Of a DNA stretch of 22,371 nt, positions 1 through 22,371 are shown one piece after another. The notes below the pieces were generated by a model. That model searched no databases and had not been told where the DNA came from. It saw only the letters and a program-made list of their open reading frames with translations. Both the position numbers and the translations under genes were made by a program. Where the stretch lies: positions 1-22,371 of IMG/VR virus record IMGVR_UViG_3300029448_000301. One strand, given 5' to 3'. Numbering within the stretch: the stretch's first letter is position 1; each line of letters opens with the position of its first letter. This DNA is from a virus.

Positions 1-177
1 ATTAGGCTTATAGTATTCTTTTATAGCTCTAAGAAAGCGAATTGAGTCTTGGTGGTGGTATGGAATATGCAAATCTGAGATAACTAATATTACCTCATTT
101 TCTTTTTGTCTTGACTCTTTGACCTTGTCGTGTTCTGACTTGGTTAGCCTTAGACGATATGTTCTTTTATCTTTTAT
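1..177 (-). CDS. Metallophosphoesterase, N-terminal part (runs off left edge)
   Basis: An open frame begins at the end of the holin gene and continues beyond the left edge; 59 residues are visible. They contain ISDLHIPYHHQDS followed by a helix-like segment, which matches the first metal-binding motif (DxH) of calcineurin-like phosphoesterases; phage members are common. The likely role is hydrolysis of a phosphodiester or phosphomonoester with two bound metal ions, but the substrate cannot be told from this fragment. There is no ATG, GTG or TTG in frame before the DLH motif, and a stop lies upstream at 193-195. The best candidate start is ATA at 177-175, which overlaps the holin stop TAA as ATAA, the same geometry as the ATGA junctions elsewhere in this operon. 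A -1 frameshift out of the holin, or a base error in this homopolymer-rich stretch, are alternatives. Family call firm, start uncertain. Confidence 0.72.
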   Translation of the reverse strand, partial: MKDKRTYRLRLTKSEHDKVKESRQKENEVILVISDLHIPYHHQDSIRFLRAIKEYYKPN

Positions 178-548
178 TTTCTTTTGATTTTCTCAATAGA
201 CCTTCCAGCAAAGTAGGCTGAATAAACACATAATAAAAGCGTTTGATAAATTGGAACGTATGCTGACGAGATTTTAAACTCGCCAATGTTTCCGTCAAAC
301 ACTGATATAACCACAAACACGAAGGTCAAAAAAATTAGTGTTAATGGTCTGATATTTGCTGGTAGCCAACCAGCCTTAGCGTCAGCCTCCCAACGCCTAG
401 TGACTTGTTGTTGTGCGTTAGACTCAGCGTTTGCTAAGATTTCACGCATCTTATTTTTTAAGGCTAGCTTCTCCTCTTTGGTTGTCACTACTTCGTCTAT
501 AATTTCTGAAGCATTTCCGATTAATGATTTAAAAATCCCTCCTAGCAT
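174..548 (-). CDS. Holin, 3TM family-like
   Basis: This 124-residue protein probably forms the inner-membrane lesion that times lysis and releases the endolysin. It has an amphipathic charged N-terminal half (residues 1-60) and the segment RRWEADAKAGWLPANIRPLT, typical of the 3TM phage holin family (PF11351-like). Hydrophobic segments follow at about residues 68-84 and 98-115, then SAYFAGRSIEK and a basic tail. The start is an ATG that shares one base with the TAA stop of the upstream M15 peptidase (TAATG at 546-550), so translation is probably coupled to the endolysin. A metallophosphoesterase frame overlaps the 3' end. The family call rests on pattern recognition of the WEAD...NIRPLT segment; it fits well with the adjacent endolysin. 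Confidence 0.82.
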   Translation of the reverse strand: MLGGIFKSLIGNASEIIDEVVTTKEEKLALKNKMREILANAESNAQQQVTRRWEADAKAGWLPANIRPLTLIFLTFVFVVISVFDGNIGEFKISSAYVPIYQTLLLCVYSAYFAGRSIEKIKRK

Positions 549-1045
549 TATATAGAATTGTATTTAATTAAAGGTCTGTACTTTGTTTTGTTGTCCATAT
601 CTTTATAGGCAACTAAAGTTTCTCGTCTATTGTCTGATACTTTCCAGCTCAAGTGTAGCCAACTTGGAAACATAGGATCGCTCAAAGCGGACGAGTCCCC
701 AAATTCGAGAATTGCTTGGTCATAGTCTAAGTCTAAGTCTATCAGTGCTTTATAGATTTTAAGGTTGTCCATTTTGCCTCTGCTAACGTGTTGAAGGTCA
801 CAAGCTTCATAGCGACAATGCTGGCTGGACGCACTTGATCCGATAGCCTCTGACAAAGCTGGAGACCTGTACGCTGAGGTCACTCTGATGGAGCCTACAA
901 CATTCCTGAGAGGCTGTAAAAGATTAACGCACAGGAGTCTCAACTTTATGATTCCTTCTTTTGTTGCTGAATTATCAAGATTCATTCTTTGTGCCGTAGC
1001 ACTAAAAATCATTTCTTGGAGTGTAAAATTTCTCGTTAACTTCAT
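548..1045 (-). CDS. Endolysin, M15-type zinc peptidase
   Basis: A 165-residue enzyme predicted to cut peptide bonds in host peptidoglycan (D,D- or L,D-carboxypeptidase/endopeptidase) at lysis. It resembles Peptidase_M15_3. The N-terminal NFTLQEMIFS segment is typical of short phage M15 proteins. VTSAYRSPALSEAIG at about residues 55-69 precedes SSQHCRYEACDL, giving probable zinc ligands His76 and Asp83; SWLHLSW supplies the third ligand, His131. The usual Gly in the SQHxxGxAxD motif is replaced (CRYEACD), a small deviation from the family. There is no signal peptide, so it needs the holin encoded immediately downstream. The ATG overlaps the stop of the thioredoxin-like gene by four bases (ATGA). 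Family and role are well supported; the exact bond cut is not known. Confidence 0.88.
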   Translation of the reverse strand: MKLTRNFTLQEMIFSATAQRMNLDNSATKEGIIKLRLLCVNLLQPLRNVVGSIRVTSAYRSPALSEAIGSSASSQHCRYEACDLQHVSRGKMDNLKIYKALIDLDLDYDQAILEFGDSSALSDPMFPSWLHLSWKVSDNRRETLVAYKDMDNKTKYRPLIKYNSI

Positions 1046-1377
1046 TCAAACTTAGTTAAATAAATTTTGTCTATTGCATCTTGCAAATCATTAATTGACA
1101 AATCTAATTGCATCATTATATTTGCTTCATACCTTGCAATCTCTACGTTGTTATCAAATACAATTAAAGTAGGCACTGCAAGAATGTCGTATTTTTCTTG
1201 CTCCTCTGGATTGTGACATATTACAACCTCAGCTTTTTCGCAATCTTTTAAAGACGCAATACTATAATTATTGTCAGAGTTCCACTCACTATTGTAGTGA
1301 ACTACTTTAACTTGTGCATAGCAAGAGCCTATGCAGAAAAACAATAAGCCTAATAATATGTATGGTAAATTACTCAT
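1042..1377 (-). CDS. Exported thioredoxin-fold protein without CxxC
   Basis: This 111-residue protein has a hydrophobic signal peptide at residues 1-22 (ending SCYAQ), then a small thioredoxin-like domain. Visible fold markers are a beta strand VKVVHYNSEW, and DILAVPTLIVFDNN with the conserved cis-proline loop (VPT, Pro69), followed by a C-terminal helix. At the place of the redox CGPC motif, just after Trp32, the sequence reads NSDN, so it cannot do classical dithiol chemistry. Cys46 and Cys54 remain. Cleavage is probably after AQ, giving a periplasmic protein; IGSC at residues 16-19 is a weak alternative lipobox. It starts with TAATG overlap with the upstream membrane gene and ends with ATGA overlap with the endolysin, so it belongs to the lysis-proximal operon. 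Fold call is fairly confident; function is unknown. Confidence 0.68.
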   Translation of the reverse strand: MSNLPYILLGLLFFCIGSCYAQVKVVHYNSEWNSDNNYSIASLKDCEKAEVVICHNPEEQEKYDILAVPTLIVFDNNVEIARYEANIMMQLDLSINDLQDAIDKIYLTKFE

Positions 1378-1649
1378 TAGTCCATTTTATCTATCTTGTC
1401 TCTCAAATACTTCATGTCTTCTTTAATTTCTTTTACGTCTTCTTGAGTGCTTAAAATAGAGCCTCTAATTAATTTGTCTTTTAGCTCAAACTCTTTTTCA
1501 CTAATAGGCATTTCTGGTAGCATCTTAGCTTCTTCTATGTCAGCTTGTAGAGTGAACCACATACCAACTAGTGTGACAATTAAAACCACAATTCCGCCTA
1601 GTGTTTTAAGGCTTACTTGAAACTTTGAGTCTTCAGATAATTCTTTCAT
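1377..1649 (-). CDS. Small membrane protein with coiled-coil tail
   Basis: A 90-residue protein of unknown function with one membrane segment (GGIVVLIVTLVGMWFTLQ, about residues 18-35), then a charged helical region with heptad-like spacing (EDVKEIKEDMKYLRDKIDKMD) at the C-terminus. The ATG at 1649 was chosen because it overlaps the stop of the upstream gene as ATGA; a TTG three codons earlier would give 93 residues but disrupts that neat junction. The stop overlaps the next gene as TAATG. Proteins with this layout are frequent beside holins and endolysins in Bacteroidota phages. It could help holin function, act as an inner-membrane spanin-like part, or anchor something in the periplasm; none of these can be decided here. 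Confidence 0.7.
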   Translation of the reverse strand: MKELSEDSKFQVSLKTLGGIVVLIVTLVGMWFTLQADIEEAKMLPEMPISEKEFELKDKLIRGSILSTQEDVKEIKEDMKYLRDKIDKMD

Positions 1650-1882
1650 TTGTTGCAACTTTTATCACATTTTTTTCCAGAGAATTTTTCTACACCGCTG
1701 ATTCCAAAGCAACCAAGCACAACCCAGACAAAAGAATCATAAACAAATTCGTTTATAATTAAGTCTTTGCCTATCCAGCCAGTAAGTAAATCCGCTATCA
1801 TTATTAAACACATTATTAAGAAAGCTATAAAACCTATTATAGACTTTTCGTTCCAATCATTGTTATCTTTAAATATATCCAT
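1646..1882 (-). CDS. Small two-TM membrane protein, holin-like
   Basis: A 78-residue protein with two clear hydrophobic segments, about residues 15-35 (IIGFIAFLIMCLIMIADLLTGW) and 48-62 (YDSFVWVVLGCFGIS), separated by a short polar loop, and a short basic tail rich in Lys and Cys (KFSGKKCDKSCNK). Size, topology and position in the lysis region make it a second holin or antiholin candidate beside the 3TM holin at 174-548. It starts with ATG in a TAATG overlap with the upstream cysteine-rich secreted protein and ends in ATGA overlap with the next membrane protein. No family-specific motif is recognised, so the function is inferred from topology and context only. Confidence 0.68.
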   Translation of the reverse strand: MDIFKDNNDWNEKSIIGFIAFLIMCLIMIADLLTGWIGKDLIINEFVYDSFVWVVLGCFGISGVEKFSGKKCDKSCNK

Positions 1883-2424
1883 TATAATTTATATTTTATT
1901 AAACCATTTTCTATGTAAATTCCTTCGGCTCTTTTTATAGTTCTACCATTAAGGTCATAAAGTAAGCCTGTATTTTTTGACTTGTCTAACACTTCTTGCA
2001 TTCCACTATTGCAAGGTAGTCCAGTTGTGCAATCAATATAGTCTGTTATAATGATTTCTTGAAACTCTACAATAGTGTCTGTTAGATATTCTGTGATGTA
2101 TTCTGTTTGTATTATTGTGTCCGTTTGTATTACTGGAACTTCTACATATATTGTGTCACATTCTGGAGCTGGTGGAGCGCACTCAGCTAAAGTTGTAGGG
2201 ACAACATCACTTCCCTCGTCTGATCCGTCCACACAATCAAGCCATGTATCGTTTATCCAAGATGTCTGAACACAGCCGTCTGGAGAGTATTGCGTCCAGT
2301 TAGTAGCGTCGTCGCCACAATAGAAGCCATTAGACTCAGCGCAAGCTACACACAGCTCTTGAAAGTCATAGTCTTGTGCAAAAGAAAAAGAACTGATAAA
2401 TAATAACAACAATAATTTTTTCAT
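1882..2424 (-). CDS. Secreted Cys-rich protein, LDLa-like motif and T9SS-like tail
   Basis: A 180-residue exported protein. Residues 1-17 are a Sec signal peptide (MKKLLLLLFISSFSFAQ). Residues 20-90 are cysteine-rich; the stretch C51-VQTSWINDTWLD-C64-VDGSDE has the spacing of the calcium-binding half of an LDL-receptor class A module (Trp, Asp, DC.DGSDE), with one expected Cys replaced by Asn58. Residues 88-132 are a Thr/Ile-rich beta-like spacer (DTIYVEVPVIQTDTIIQTEY). The end, LLYDLNGRTIKRAEGIYIENG, resembles the last part of type IX secretion sorting domains of Bacteroidota (YDLNGR...GIYI), though it is much shorter than a full domain. It starts two bases after the beta-barrel gene and overlaps the next gene by one base. 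Export seems secure, the LDLa likeness good, T9SS sorting plausible. It may be displayed on the host surface or incorporated in virions. Confidence 0.72.
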   Translation of the reverse strand: MKKLLLLLFISSFSFAQDYDFQELCVACAESNGFYCGDDATNWTQYSPDGCVQTSWINDTWLDCVDGSDEGSDVVPTTLAECAPPAPECDTIYVEVPVIQTDTIIQTEYITEYLTDTIVEFQEIIITDYIDCTTGLPCNSGMQEVLDKSKNTGLLYDLNGRTIKRAEGIYIENGLIKYKL

Positions 2425-2426
2425 AA

Positions 2427-3446
2427 TTAAAATATTAAATAATTAAAACCAAACTTGCACTCATAGACTGGCTTGTCCCAGTATTTTAAATGTGTACCCT
2501 CTACAAACAATCCTAAGTGCTTTGTAACTTTAGCGCCTAAAACAGCTCCAGAATCCCATTCTAAGCGTTCTAAGGCACTTTCTCCATACTTGTAAGAGTA
2601 TTCGTCCAAACCATAGTGTAAAGGCATTAGATTCGCCCAAATAAGAACCCAGTAGTTTGGAGTATATTTATAATATGACAATCCTAGCACTAAGCTAAGC
2701 TCTCTTTGCATACCTAAAGCCTCAAGCTCCCTAGTGTTATAGTCTGCTATTGCTTGTCCAAAATAGTGTTTGTAGAACTCGTCATTTGACGTTGCAAGCA
2801 ATTCGCCATTTTTAAACCAGTTCCACTGACCATTGACAAACTCGCTACTATATCCAAACTCCTCTGCTAGTTGTGGAAAAGATTGCTCTCCCGCAATCCA
2901 TGTGTCGTCAATAGGAGTGATTCCATAAGTATCATGAACTCTATATAGTCCTCCAAGTGTAACGTCAAAACCTCCTTTTGTTAGTCTTAATCTAGCATCT
3001 AAAGAATTGTATCTAAGATCAACTTTTTGTTTGTCTGTATATTGTGCTTTAACTACAAATCTTTTCCCCAAGTATCTAAGCCAATAGTTTTGCTCAATAA
3101 GTGTGTCGCCACGACTACGAACCAGTGAATAATTAGCAAGGTACTCAAAGCCAACAGCATTGGAAATAGTAACATTTTCCGAAACATTGTATTCTGTTCC
3201 TGTGAACCAAGTTCGCTTTTTTTGTTCAAACGCATATCTAGCAATTTTACGGATTCCAAAACTTAAATTGAAATCATATTCGTTATTCTTTGTGACATCT
3301 TCGTATCCTTTGTCAATAGAAATATAGTCTTGTCTTTCTACCATACTTGTATTCATATTCATAGAAGTATAAATAGTAGAATACTTGAAGAAATCTATTT
3401 GTCCAAAAGACAAAAACGGAATTAATAATAATAAGTATTTTATCAT
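2427..3446 (-). CDS. Outer-membrane beta-barrel protein candidate
   Basis: A 339-residue protein with a clear Sec signal peptide (MIKYLLLLIPFLSFGQ, cleavage near residue 16). The mature part is rich in Tyr, Trp and Phe and shows many short alternating strands (for example NEYDFNLSFGIRKIARYAF, TISNAVGFEYLANYSLV, FVVKAQYTDKQKVDLRYN, GLFVEGTHL). It ends YECKFGFNYLIF with a terminal Phe, the typical C-terminal signal recognised by the Bam machinery. This fits insertion in the outer membrane of the host. The ATG overlaps the upstream appendage-like gene by ATGA, and the secreted Cys-rich gene follows after two bases, so it is part of the late operon. A virion protein with a beta-rich fold is an alternative, but the signal peptide argues against it. 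No specific porin or receptor family is recognised. Confidence 0.66.
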   Translation of the reverse strand: MIKYLLLLIPFLSFGQIDFFKYSTIYTSMNMNTSMVERQDYISIDKGYEDVTKNNEYDFNLSFGIRKIARYAFEQKKRTWFTGTEYNVSENVTISNAVGFEYLANYSLVRSRGDTLIEQNYWLRYLGKRFVVKAQYTDKQKVDLRYNSLDARLRLTKGGFDVTLGGLYRVHDTYGITPIDDTWIAGEQSFPQLAEEFGYSSEFVNGQWNWFKNGELLATSNDEFYKHYFGQAIADYNTRELEALGMQRELSLVLGLSYYKYTPNYWVLIWANLMPLHYGLDEYSYKYGESALERLEWDSGAVLGAKVTKHLGLFVEGTHLKYWDKPVYECKFGFNYLIF

Positions 3447-21519: not shown

Positions 21520-22371
21520 TTATACCGATTTCTCGTTGATTAGTACCTCTTTTATTAAATAAGCCATAGCGTCTGCTGTCATGCTGTTTCCTGCTTGTTT
21601 GTATAGTTGTGTGTCGCTTATTCCTATTTCTCTACATTTGTCTACAAAAGAGTCTGGAAAACCTTGTAGTCTAAAACATTCTTTTGGTGTTAGTCTTCTT
21701 ATTCTTTTTTTTTTTATAATAGGAGCATCTCTTGTATGTAAACAAGGACTTAGTCTGTTTTCTCTTATTCTCAATCCTTCATCTGTTCTATAATCTGCAA
21801 TCCATTCTATTAAATCATCAGCTCCTTGCCCCCCAACCTTTAAACTACTCATATTATCAAATTCAGGATTATGAAATTTAGCGCTAAAGCCATTGCCCTT
21901 TTCTTTATTTCTTTTATTATATAACTCTAATTTTTCTACAGATTTTTCACTTAAAAAATACTTATCATTTACATTATCGCTTATTATGTCTTTTAGTCTT
22001 AATTCTAAGGGCATTTTCTTTGGAAACTTAAAGTTGTGTTTTTCATCTCTAAATCCTACTATAAAAACTCTTTCTCTATTTTGAGGTATTCCATAATCTT
22101 TAGTATTTAAAACTTTATAATAGACATAATAGTTCAATCCGTCTTCATAGTTAGTAAAACTATATTGACCATTTACTGCTTTTGCAAGACAGTCTAATAT
22201 CGTTAAAAATGTTCTACCTTTATTGTGGCTTAGTAATCCTTTAACATTTTCTAATATAAAATACTTAGGCTTTTTAGCTTTTAAATATTGCAATAAATCA
22301 AAGAACAATGTTCCCCTAGTGTCTTCAAATCCTTTTCTCTTTCCAGCCATGCTAAAGGCTTGACAAGGAAA
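21520..22371 (-). CDS. C5-cytosine DNA methyltransferase (5' end beyond window)
   Basis: The visible 283 residues are the greater part of a Dcm-type enzyme that methylates cytosine at C5 using S-adenosylmethionine. The open frame continues to the right edge as FPCQAFS, so motif IV with the catalytic Cys is present and the true start is outside the window; an internal ATG at 22350 is not the start. Further motifs: FILENVKGL (VI), YGIPQNRERVFIVG (VIII), a target-recognition region, RRLTPKECFRLQGFP (IX) and YKQAGNSM (X). It lies 10 bases upstream of the small terminase gene. Phage copies usually act alone to protect phage DNA from host restriction; no partner restriction enzyme is visible. Target sequence unknown. 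Confidence 0.93.
   Translation of the reverse strand, partial: FPCQAFSMAGKRKGFEDTRGTLFFDLLQYLKAKKPKYFILENVKGLLSHNKGRTFLTILDCLAKAVNGQYSFTNYEDGLNYYVYYKVLNTKDYGIPQNRERVFIVGFRDEKHNFKFPKKMPLELRLKDIISDNVNDKYFLSEKSVEKLELYNKRNKEKGNGFSAKFHNPEFDNMSSLKVGGQGADDLIEWIADYRTDEGLRIRENRLSPCLHTRDAPIIKKKRIRRLTPKECFRLQGFPDSFVDKCREIGISDTQLYKQAGNSMTADAMAYLIKEVLINEKSV

Follow-up and report, generated by a model that had tools for sequence, protein, structure and literature searches.

We found, in the 22,371-nucleotide stretch of viral DNA analyzed here (the window, taken from a record that is a 28.7 kb virus contig), a gene for a protein that combines a Sec signal peptide, a head derived from the LDL receptor class A (LDLa) module, a repetitive rod and a short C-terminal tail of the type IX secretion system (T9SS) kind. 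We consider it reasonably probable that this protein is a phage-made T9SS cargo, which would be produced late in infection and displayed on the surface of the host, working together with an outer-membrane barrel that is also encoded by the phage.

The gene and its phage family

The reading frame at positions 1882-2424 (minus strand) begins with ATG, runs uninterrupted to its stop codon and encodes 180 amino acids (sequence inspection and ORF listing), laid out as a Sec-type signal peptide, nine cysteines, a middle region of DTI/TEY repeats and an end that reads YDLNGR...GIYIENGLIKYKL. The N-terminus, MKKLLLLLFISSFSFA|Q, is by inspection a Sec-type signal peptide without a lipobox (residues 1-16, positions 2377-2424, minus strand; predicted cut FA|Q), and the glutamine at +1 (Q17) is invariant in an alignment of 41 relatives; both the 180-residue frame and the signal peptide are as described in an earlier note on this DNA, which had been made from the sequence alone.

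At least 132 loci in IMG/VR encode relatives of this protein. We retrieved 80 of these 132 relatives, scored the 79 full-length ones for motifs and aligned 41 diverse members; the family loci are partly non-independent, some being near copies of each other. The same layout recurs in all 79 full-length members: the signal peptide is followed by the LDLa-like head and by a DTI/TEY rod that varies, and the C-terminus is formed by the short tail. Among the 41 diverse members, the cysteines at positions 25, 28, 36, 51, 64, 82, 89, 132 and 138 are invariant, as are, in addition to Q17, the residues D59, D63, D69, E70, Y156, G160, I171 and G174. Searches with module genes found no relatives of the cargo, barrel or TM/coiled-coil gene (the latter two are described below) among GenBank phages. 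Designed TIM barrels, which represented the best sequence match in the PDB, were rejected as repeat-driven noise at query positions 45-75.

An LDLa-derived head

The head (residues 25-82; positions 2179-2352, minus strand) was identified by alignment, Foldseek and VIA. It contains C51-x12-C64-VDGSDE, with W56 two residues ahead of where LDLa has its Cys4. D59, D63, D69 and E70, all four invariant in the 41 sequences, occupy the calcium-ligand positions of LDLa; the ligand pattern DxxxDC-x4-DE is retained in 77 of the 79 full-length relatives. The motif, the Trp and Asp register and the calcium ligands that the earlier note had read as an LDLa-like stretch are thus present, but a feature on which it did not remark is that LDLa Cys4 is gone, the position being taken by N58 in the window protein and by N or G in 79/79 relatives, so that the six-cysteine pattern of the module (C1-C3, C2-C5, C4-C6) is incomplete. 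The family alignment also shows an extra cysteine three residues ahead of head C1. With its calcium ligands retained and Cys4 absent, the head is an LDLa derivative and not a canonical LDLa module.

The Pfam LDLa model gave the window protein 13.0 bits (E = 0.12), below the gathering cut-off of 24.1, and matched 31 of the 41 members at E <= 1 (best E = 0.00074). The AlphaFold model has middling confidence over the head; the structural matches of the head in a blind Foldseek search and in VIA were nearly all LDLa modules, if weak ones (best E = 0.15, Z = 3.5), which agrees with the proposed likeness to LDLa.

Compared to the LDL receptor class A module (PF00057), the phage head shares the positions of C1, C2, C3, C5 and C6, the calcium ligands and the nearest folds, whereas it differs in having Asn or Gly for Cys4, the extra cysteine, and long C2-C3 and C5-C6 loops. 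Proteins of Marinimicrobia carry the same long-loop head, including the same C2-C3 loop, but in them the set of six cysteines is complete and the additional cysteine is missing; because of this, a swapped disulfide in the phage head, with C25-C82 replacing C4-C6, is likely, as judged by comparing sequences. We found no report of LDLa in phages in the literature. A Poseidoniales archaeon protein (L084:6494-10609) contains over a dozen repeats of the LDLa-like form NDG-x2-DC-x4-DE.

A variable rod and a short T9SS-type tail

The rod of DTI/TEY repeats (residues 89-132; positions 2029-2160, minus strand) was placed by alignment and lies where the structure model is unconfident; between fixed flanking motifs, its length ranges from 15 to 113 residues across relatives. 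The tail (residues 141-180; positions 1885-2004, minus strand), identified by motif scoring and profile comparison, follows a cleavage-like NS|GM and consists of motif B (Y156-G160), motif D (G168-Y170-I171) and a basic end (motif E); YDLNGR-x6-GIYI spans residues 156-171, and the protein stops 9 residues further on. Motifs B and D, separated by a spacing of 4, are found in 79/79 full-length relatives, as are the Ile of motif D and the basic end, while strict GxY is found in 69/79 and the cleavage-like [ST]|[GSA][ILM] in 77/79. Tail length is 40-48 amino acids (40 in the window protein), and the spacing from the cleavage-like site to motif B varies with where the motif is drawn. The phage tails follow the motif rules for short T9SS domains (B, Y..G; D, GxY then Ile; basic E; B-D spacing of 1-6). 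As the tail is retained in all 79 full-length relatives, with no change in B-D spacing, its presence is not due to chance.

The profile of the last 44 residues matched 28 cellular short T9SS tails (P = 8.6e-12, with 0/100 column shuffles as good), a comparison that may be biased as these 28 tails were collected with a consensus from general knowledge, and also matched 11 long T9SS tails (hhalign, 7.7e-6, with 0/100 shuffles as good). Curated models of type A T9SS domains were not reached: the window protein had no NCBIfam match at E <= 10, TIGR04183 was absent from the 41 members and PF18962 was not found in the Pfam search of members. Thus, for the LDLa and T9SS families alike, HMM searches remained below the curated Pfam and NCBIfam thresholds. 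The resemblance of YDLNGR...GIYI to a T9SS sorting domain, as proposed in the earlier note, is nonetheless borne out by the profile match to cellular short tails and by the ends of SprA-positive Bacteroidota proteins (see below). Of the two readings that the note had offered for the shortness of the tail, decay is ruled out by its presence in 79/79 relatives, and a genuine minimal signal agrees with the finding that short tails represent a real class (PMC11969387).

Short tails in Prevotella intermedia have been found experimentally to be cleaved and glycosylated, and were modelled as binding PorV in the same manner as long tails (PMC11969387). The phage tails resemble these domains in motifs B, D and E, the B-D spacing, the basic end and a putative cleavage site, as well as in length (40-48 amino acids, as compared to 40-55 in P. 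intermedia; PMC11969387). In P. intermedia, the cleavage site is PT/GI-like and precedes motif B. On the other hand, they are encoded by a phage, have Gln more often than Arg or Lys after motif B, and are known from sequence alone.

The barrel partner and the late operon

The genes at positions 174-3446 abut or overlap, in the order barrel, LDLa/tail gene, two-TM protein, TM/coiled-coil protein, thioredoxin (Trx)-fold protein, M15 endolysin and holin, which agrees with the phage late operon recognized before. The gene directly upstream of the cargo gene (positions 2427-3446, minus strand) encodes a 339-amino-acid outer-membrane beta-barrel with a signal peptide and a C-terminal Phe (AlphaFold pLDDT 73), whose Foldseek and VIA matches are outer-membrane barrels. 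No family match was found for it in Pfam, PHROG or NCBIfam, including the shuttle families (PorP/SprF, PorV), no known shuttle was listed for it by VIA, an outcome that does not argue against one, and no homologues were found in 395 Bacteroidia genomes, save one partial match (E = 9e-4); BFVD entry A0A516LKJ4 is 32% identical to it.

The barrel gene lies upstream in 79/81 cargo-anchored loci. When loci were anchored on the barrel instead, the cargo gene was present in 95/95 loci with enough downstream DNA and the Trx-fold gene in 68/73; many of these contigs overlap the cargo-anchored ones, while others are additional. The barrel, for which we found 288 relatives in IMG/VR, was not seen without a downstream cargo gene. 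In Flavobacterium johnsoniae, T9SS type B cargo is linked to PorP/SprF-like shuttle genes (PMC12618676). The phage arrangement is similar in that a gene for a cargo with a sorting tail adjoins a gene for an outer-membrane barrel, and differs in that the phage barrel has no Pfam, PHROG or NCBIfam match and the phage tail resembles type A more than type B. The barrel may, as a possibility that we hold to be doubtful, represent a phage-made shuttle or anchor dedicated to the cargo, by which the phage would take over the outermost T9SS step and coat infected cells.

Downstream of the cargo gene, a holin-like small protein with two TM segments (positions 1646-1882, minus strand; gene listing and topology) holds this slot in part of the family, and another small protein of the same slot has a weak holin PHROG match (E = 0.0067). 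It is followed by a protein with an N-terminal TM segment and a coiled coil (positions 1377-1649, minus strand; downstream in 68/81 loci) and by an exported Trx-fold protein (positions 1042-1377, minus strand; downstream in 73/81 loci). The latter matches thioredoxin (E = 1.2e-9), with both active-site cysteines replaced by Asn, invariant in 31 sequences (WNxxN for WCGPC); a thioredoxin-type redox role is ruled out by this change of CxxC to a conserved NxxN. An M15-family endolysin (positions 548-1045, minus strand; domain search) and a holin (positions 174-548, minus strand; PHROG match to phrog_3427) adjoin the module.

The main rival to a surface cargo is a role in lysis, which we regard as unlikely. 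According to this explanation, the module would be an outer-membrane lysis device of Bacteroidota phages: the TM/coiled-coil protein would act like a spanin of the inner membrane, and the barrel and the rod protein, placed in or at the outer membrane, would open it once the endolysin has worked. The window module abuts or overlaps endolysin and holin genes, an endolysin-type gene is close to the module in 69/81 loci (with three kinds represented, i.e., M15, DUF5675 and phrog_33083-like), and the TM/coiled-coil topology resembles that of i-spanins. However, a lysis function for DUF5675 is an assumption, the rod protein has no lipobox, unlike o-spanins, and its T9SS tail, which is retained with a cleavage-like site in 77/79 relatives, would take it outside the cell and not into a complex spanning the periplasm.

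The terminase of the window is missing from eight module contigs of 36-88 kb and from one of 28 kb, some of which may be fragments; as it is missing from these nine contigs, the module is probably common to phages that differ in their packaging genes. Adjoining the terminase genes, positions 21520-22371 contain, by inspection, a C-5 cytosine methyltransferase-like gene that runs off the end of the window.

Cellular tails and the likely host

In one Bacteroidia family, a single genome can contain as many as 77 cellular short tails. SprA, the T9SS translocon, is encoded in 48/50 genomes with short tails as compared to 5/31 genomes without (P = 4.7e-14). A tail search of 198 Bacteroidia genomes yielded weak matches only, and approx. 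10 of the 25 loci retrieved end in genuine T9SS tails as judged by eye.

We also searched a small-genome, probably marine Bacteroidota family, made up of an uncultured Bacteroidetes genome and its relatives (12 assemblies, 0.8-1.5 Mb in size), with phage profiles alone and thus without the bias of a preset tail consensus. Relatives were found in 8/12 genomes. In four proteins of this family, including one contig-edge fragment, the phage-type rod and tail are joined to different heads, and other proteins carry the phage-type head; the tails are up to 67% and the heads up to 74% identical to their phage counterparts. The tail proteins have ordinary cell genes as neighbors (lysyl-tRNA synthetase, rpiB, gidA; by eye), and the barrel and Trx partner genes of the phage module were absent from the retrieved stretches around them. 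SprA is encoded in 12/12 of these genomes, while strong tails occur in only 4/12 and in none of the proteins of the first-matched member, G013. The Bacteroidota proteins L154-L157 have unrelated heads (one leucine-rich-repeat-like) on one shared rod-and-tail unit, present once per genome, in the manner of a separate sorting class that exists alongside the common long tails.

Since matching tails and heads are found in chromosomal proteins and SprA is present in 12/12 genomes, this family is likely to be the host of the phages and the origin of the export tag, an identity that we infer from shared domains alone. Neither a prophage nor a CRISPR match that would connect these phages to the family was found, and the terminase of the window, which matches phages of Phocaeicola, Bacteroides and Flavobacterium among many others, does not fix the host.

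The cellular proteins also bear on the suggestion, quite improbable in our view, that the tail does not use the host T9SS but docks into the phage barrel, with the protein remaining periplasmic. PorV and other barrel shuttles are indeed known to be bound by T9SS tails (PMC11969387, PMC12618676), and the cargo gene was present in every barrel locus for which the downstream sequence was long enough. Yet cellular Bacteroidota proteins have the same tail in a chromosomal setting with no barrel, and the cleavage-like site is retained. That the protein is a virion part, e.g. a tail or head decoration binding host ligands through its calcium head, is very improbable, as a late operon, a variable rod length and the ligand binding of LDLa modules would fit such a role, but the signal peptide with its invariant +1 Gln, the T9SS-type tail, the formation of tailed-phage virions in the cytoplasm and the proximity to endolysin-type genes in most loci do not.

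Proposed role and significance

We thus prefer the interpretation of the protein as a T9SS cargo displayed on the host surface, for which the steps of export, cleavage, anchoring and use that we infer would be as follows. The cargo would be made from the late operon and pass the inner membrane by Sec; its host-type short C-terminal signal would then be recognised, and the outer membrane crossed via the host T9SS. It would probably be cut at NS|GM and remain on the cell surface, where the calcium-binding LDLa-type head would be presented on a rod of variable length and act together with the barrel from the gene directly upstream. Given the conserved barrel/cargo pair and an export tag of the kind that the likely hosts use, the surface of infected cells probably bears a protein of phage origin at a late stage of infection.

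The most likely use would be late remodelling of the infected surface, e.g. masking of the receptor of the phage, both on the cell itself and on its debris at lysis. We favor receptor masking, arguing from position and analogy, given that lysis genes are close by and that the protein is expected to come to lie outside the cell; the very conserved head, which is unusual in a fast-evolving exclusion factor, speaks against it. In phage T5, the small lipoprotein Llp serves lytic conversion as a late surface receptor blocker. The likeness to Llp-type proteins is confined to the proposed role (a late receptor block on cell and debris), Llp being a lipoprotein.

Phage-encoded T9SS cargo as such has been reported: Cryophage encodes enzymes and a PA14 protein as T9SS cargo (PMC7468147), and crAss-like phages encode BACON proteins with T9SS domains (PMC6949934). 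Like the present family, these are phage-encoded proteins that bear a sorting domain of the host T9SS; what differs here is the short tail, the LDLa-type head, the fixed barrel partner and the occurrence in phages without a common terminase. The LDLa-head cargo family and its barrel module appear to be new. While the literature that we found notes phage use of T9SS only as scattered cargo genes, the cargo described here is tied to a partner barrel, is found again in phages without the window terminase and matches proteins of one small-genome Bacteroidota family. These data suggest a host group for phages that have no cultured relatives and provide, in the tail, a natural minimal signal for the study of T9SS cargo recognition; with the cargo-barrel pair, the idea that a phage rebuilds the surface of its host through T9SS can be put to the test.
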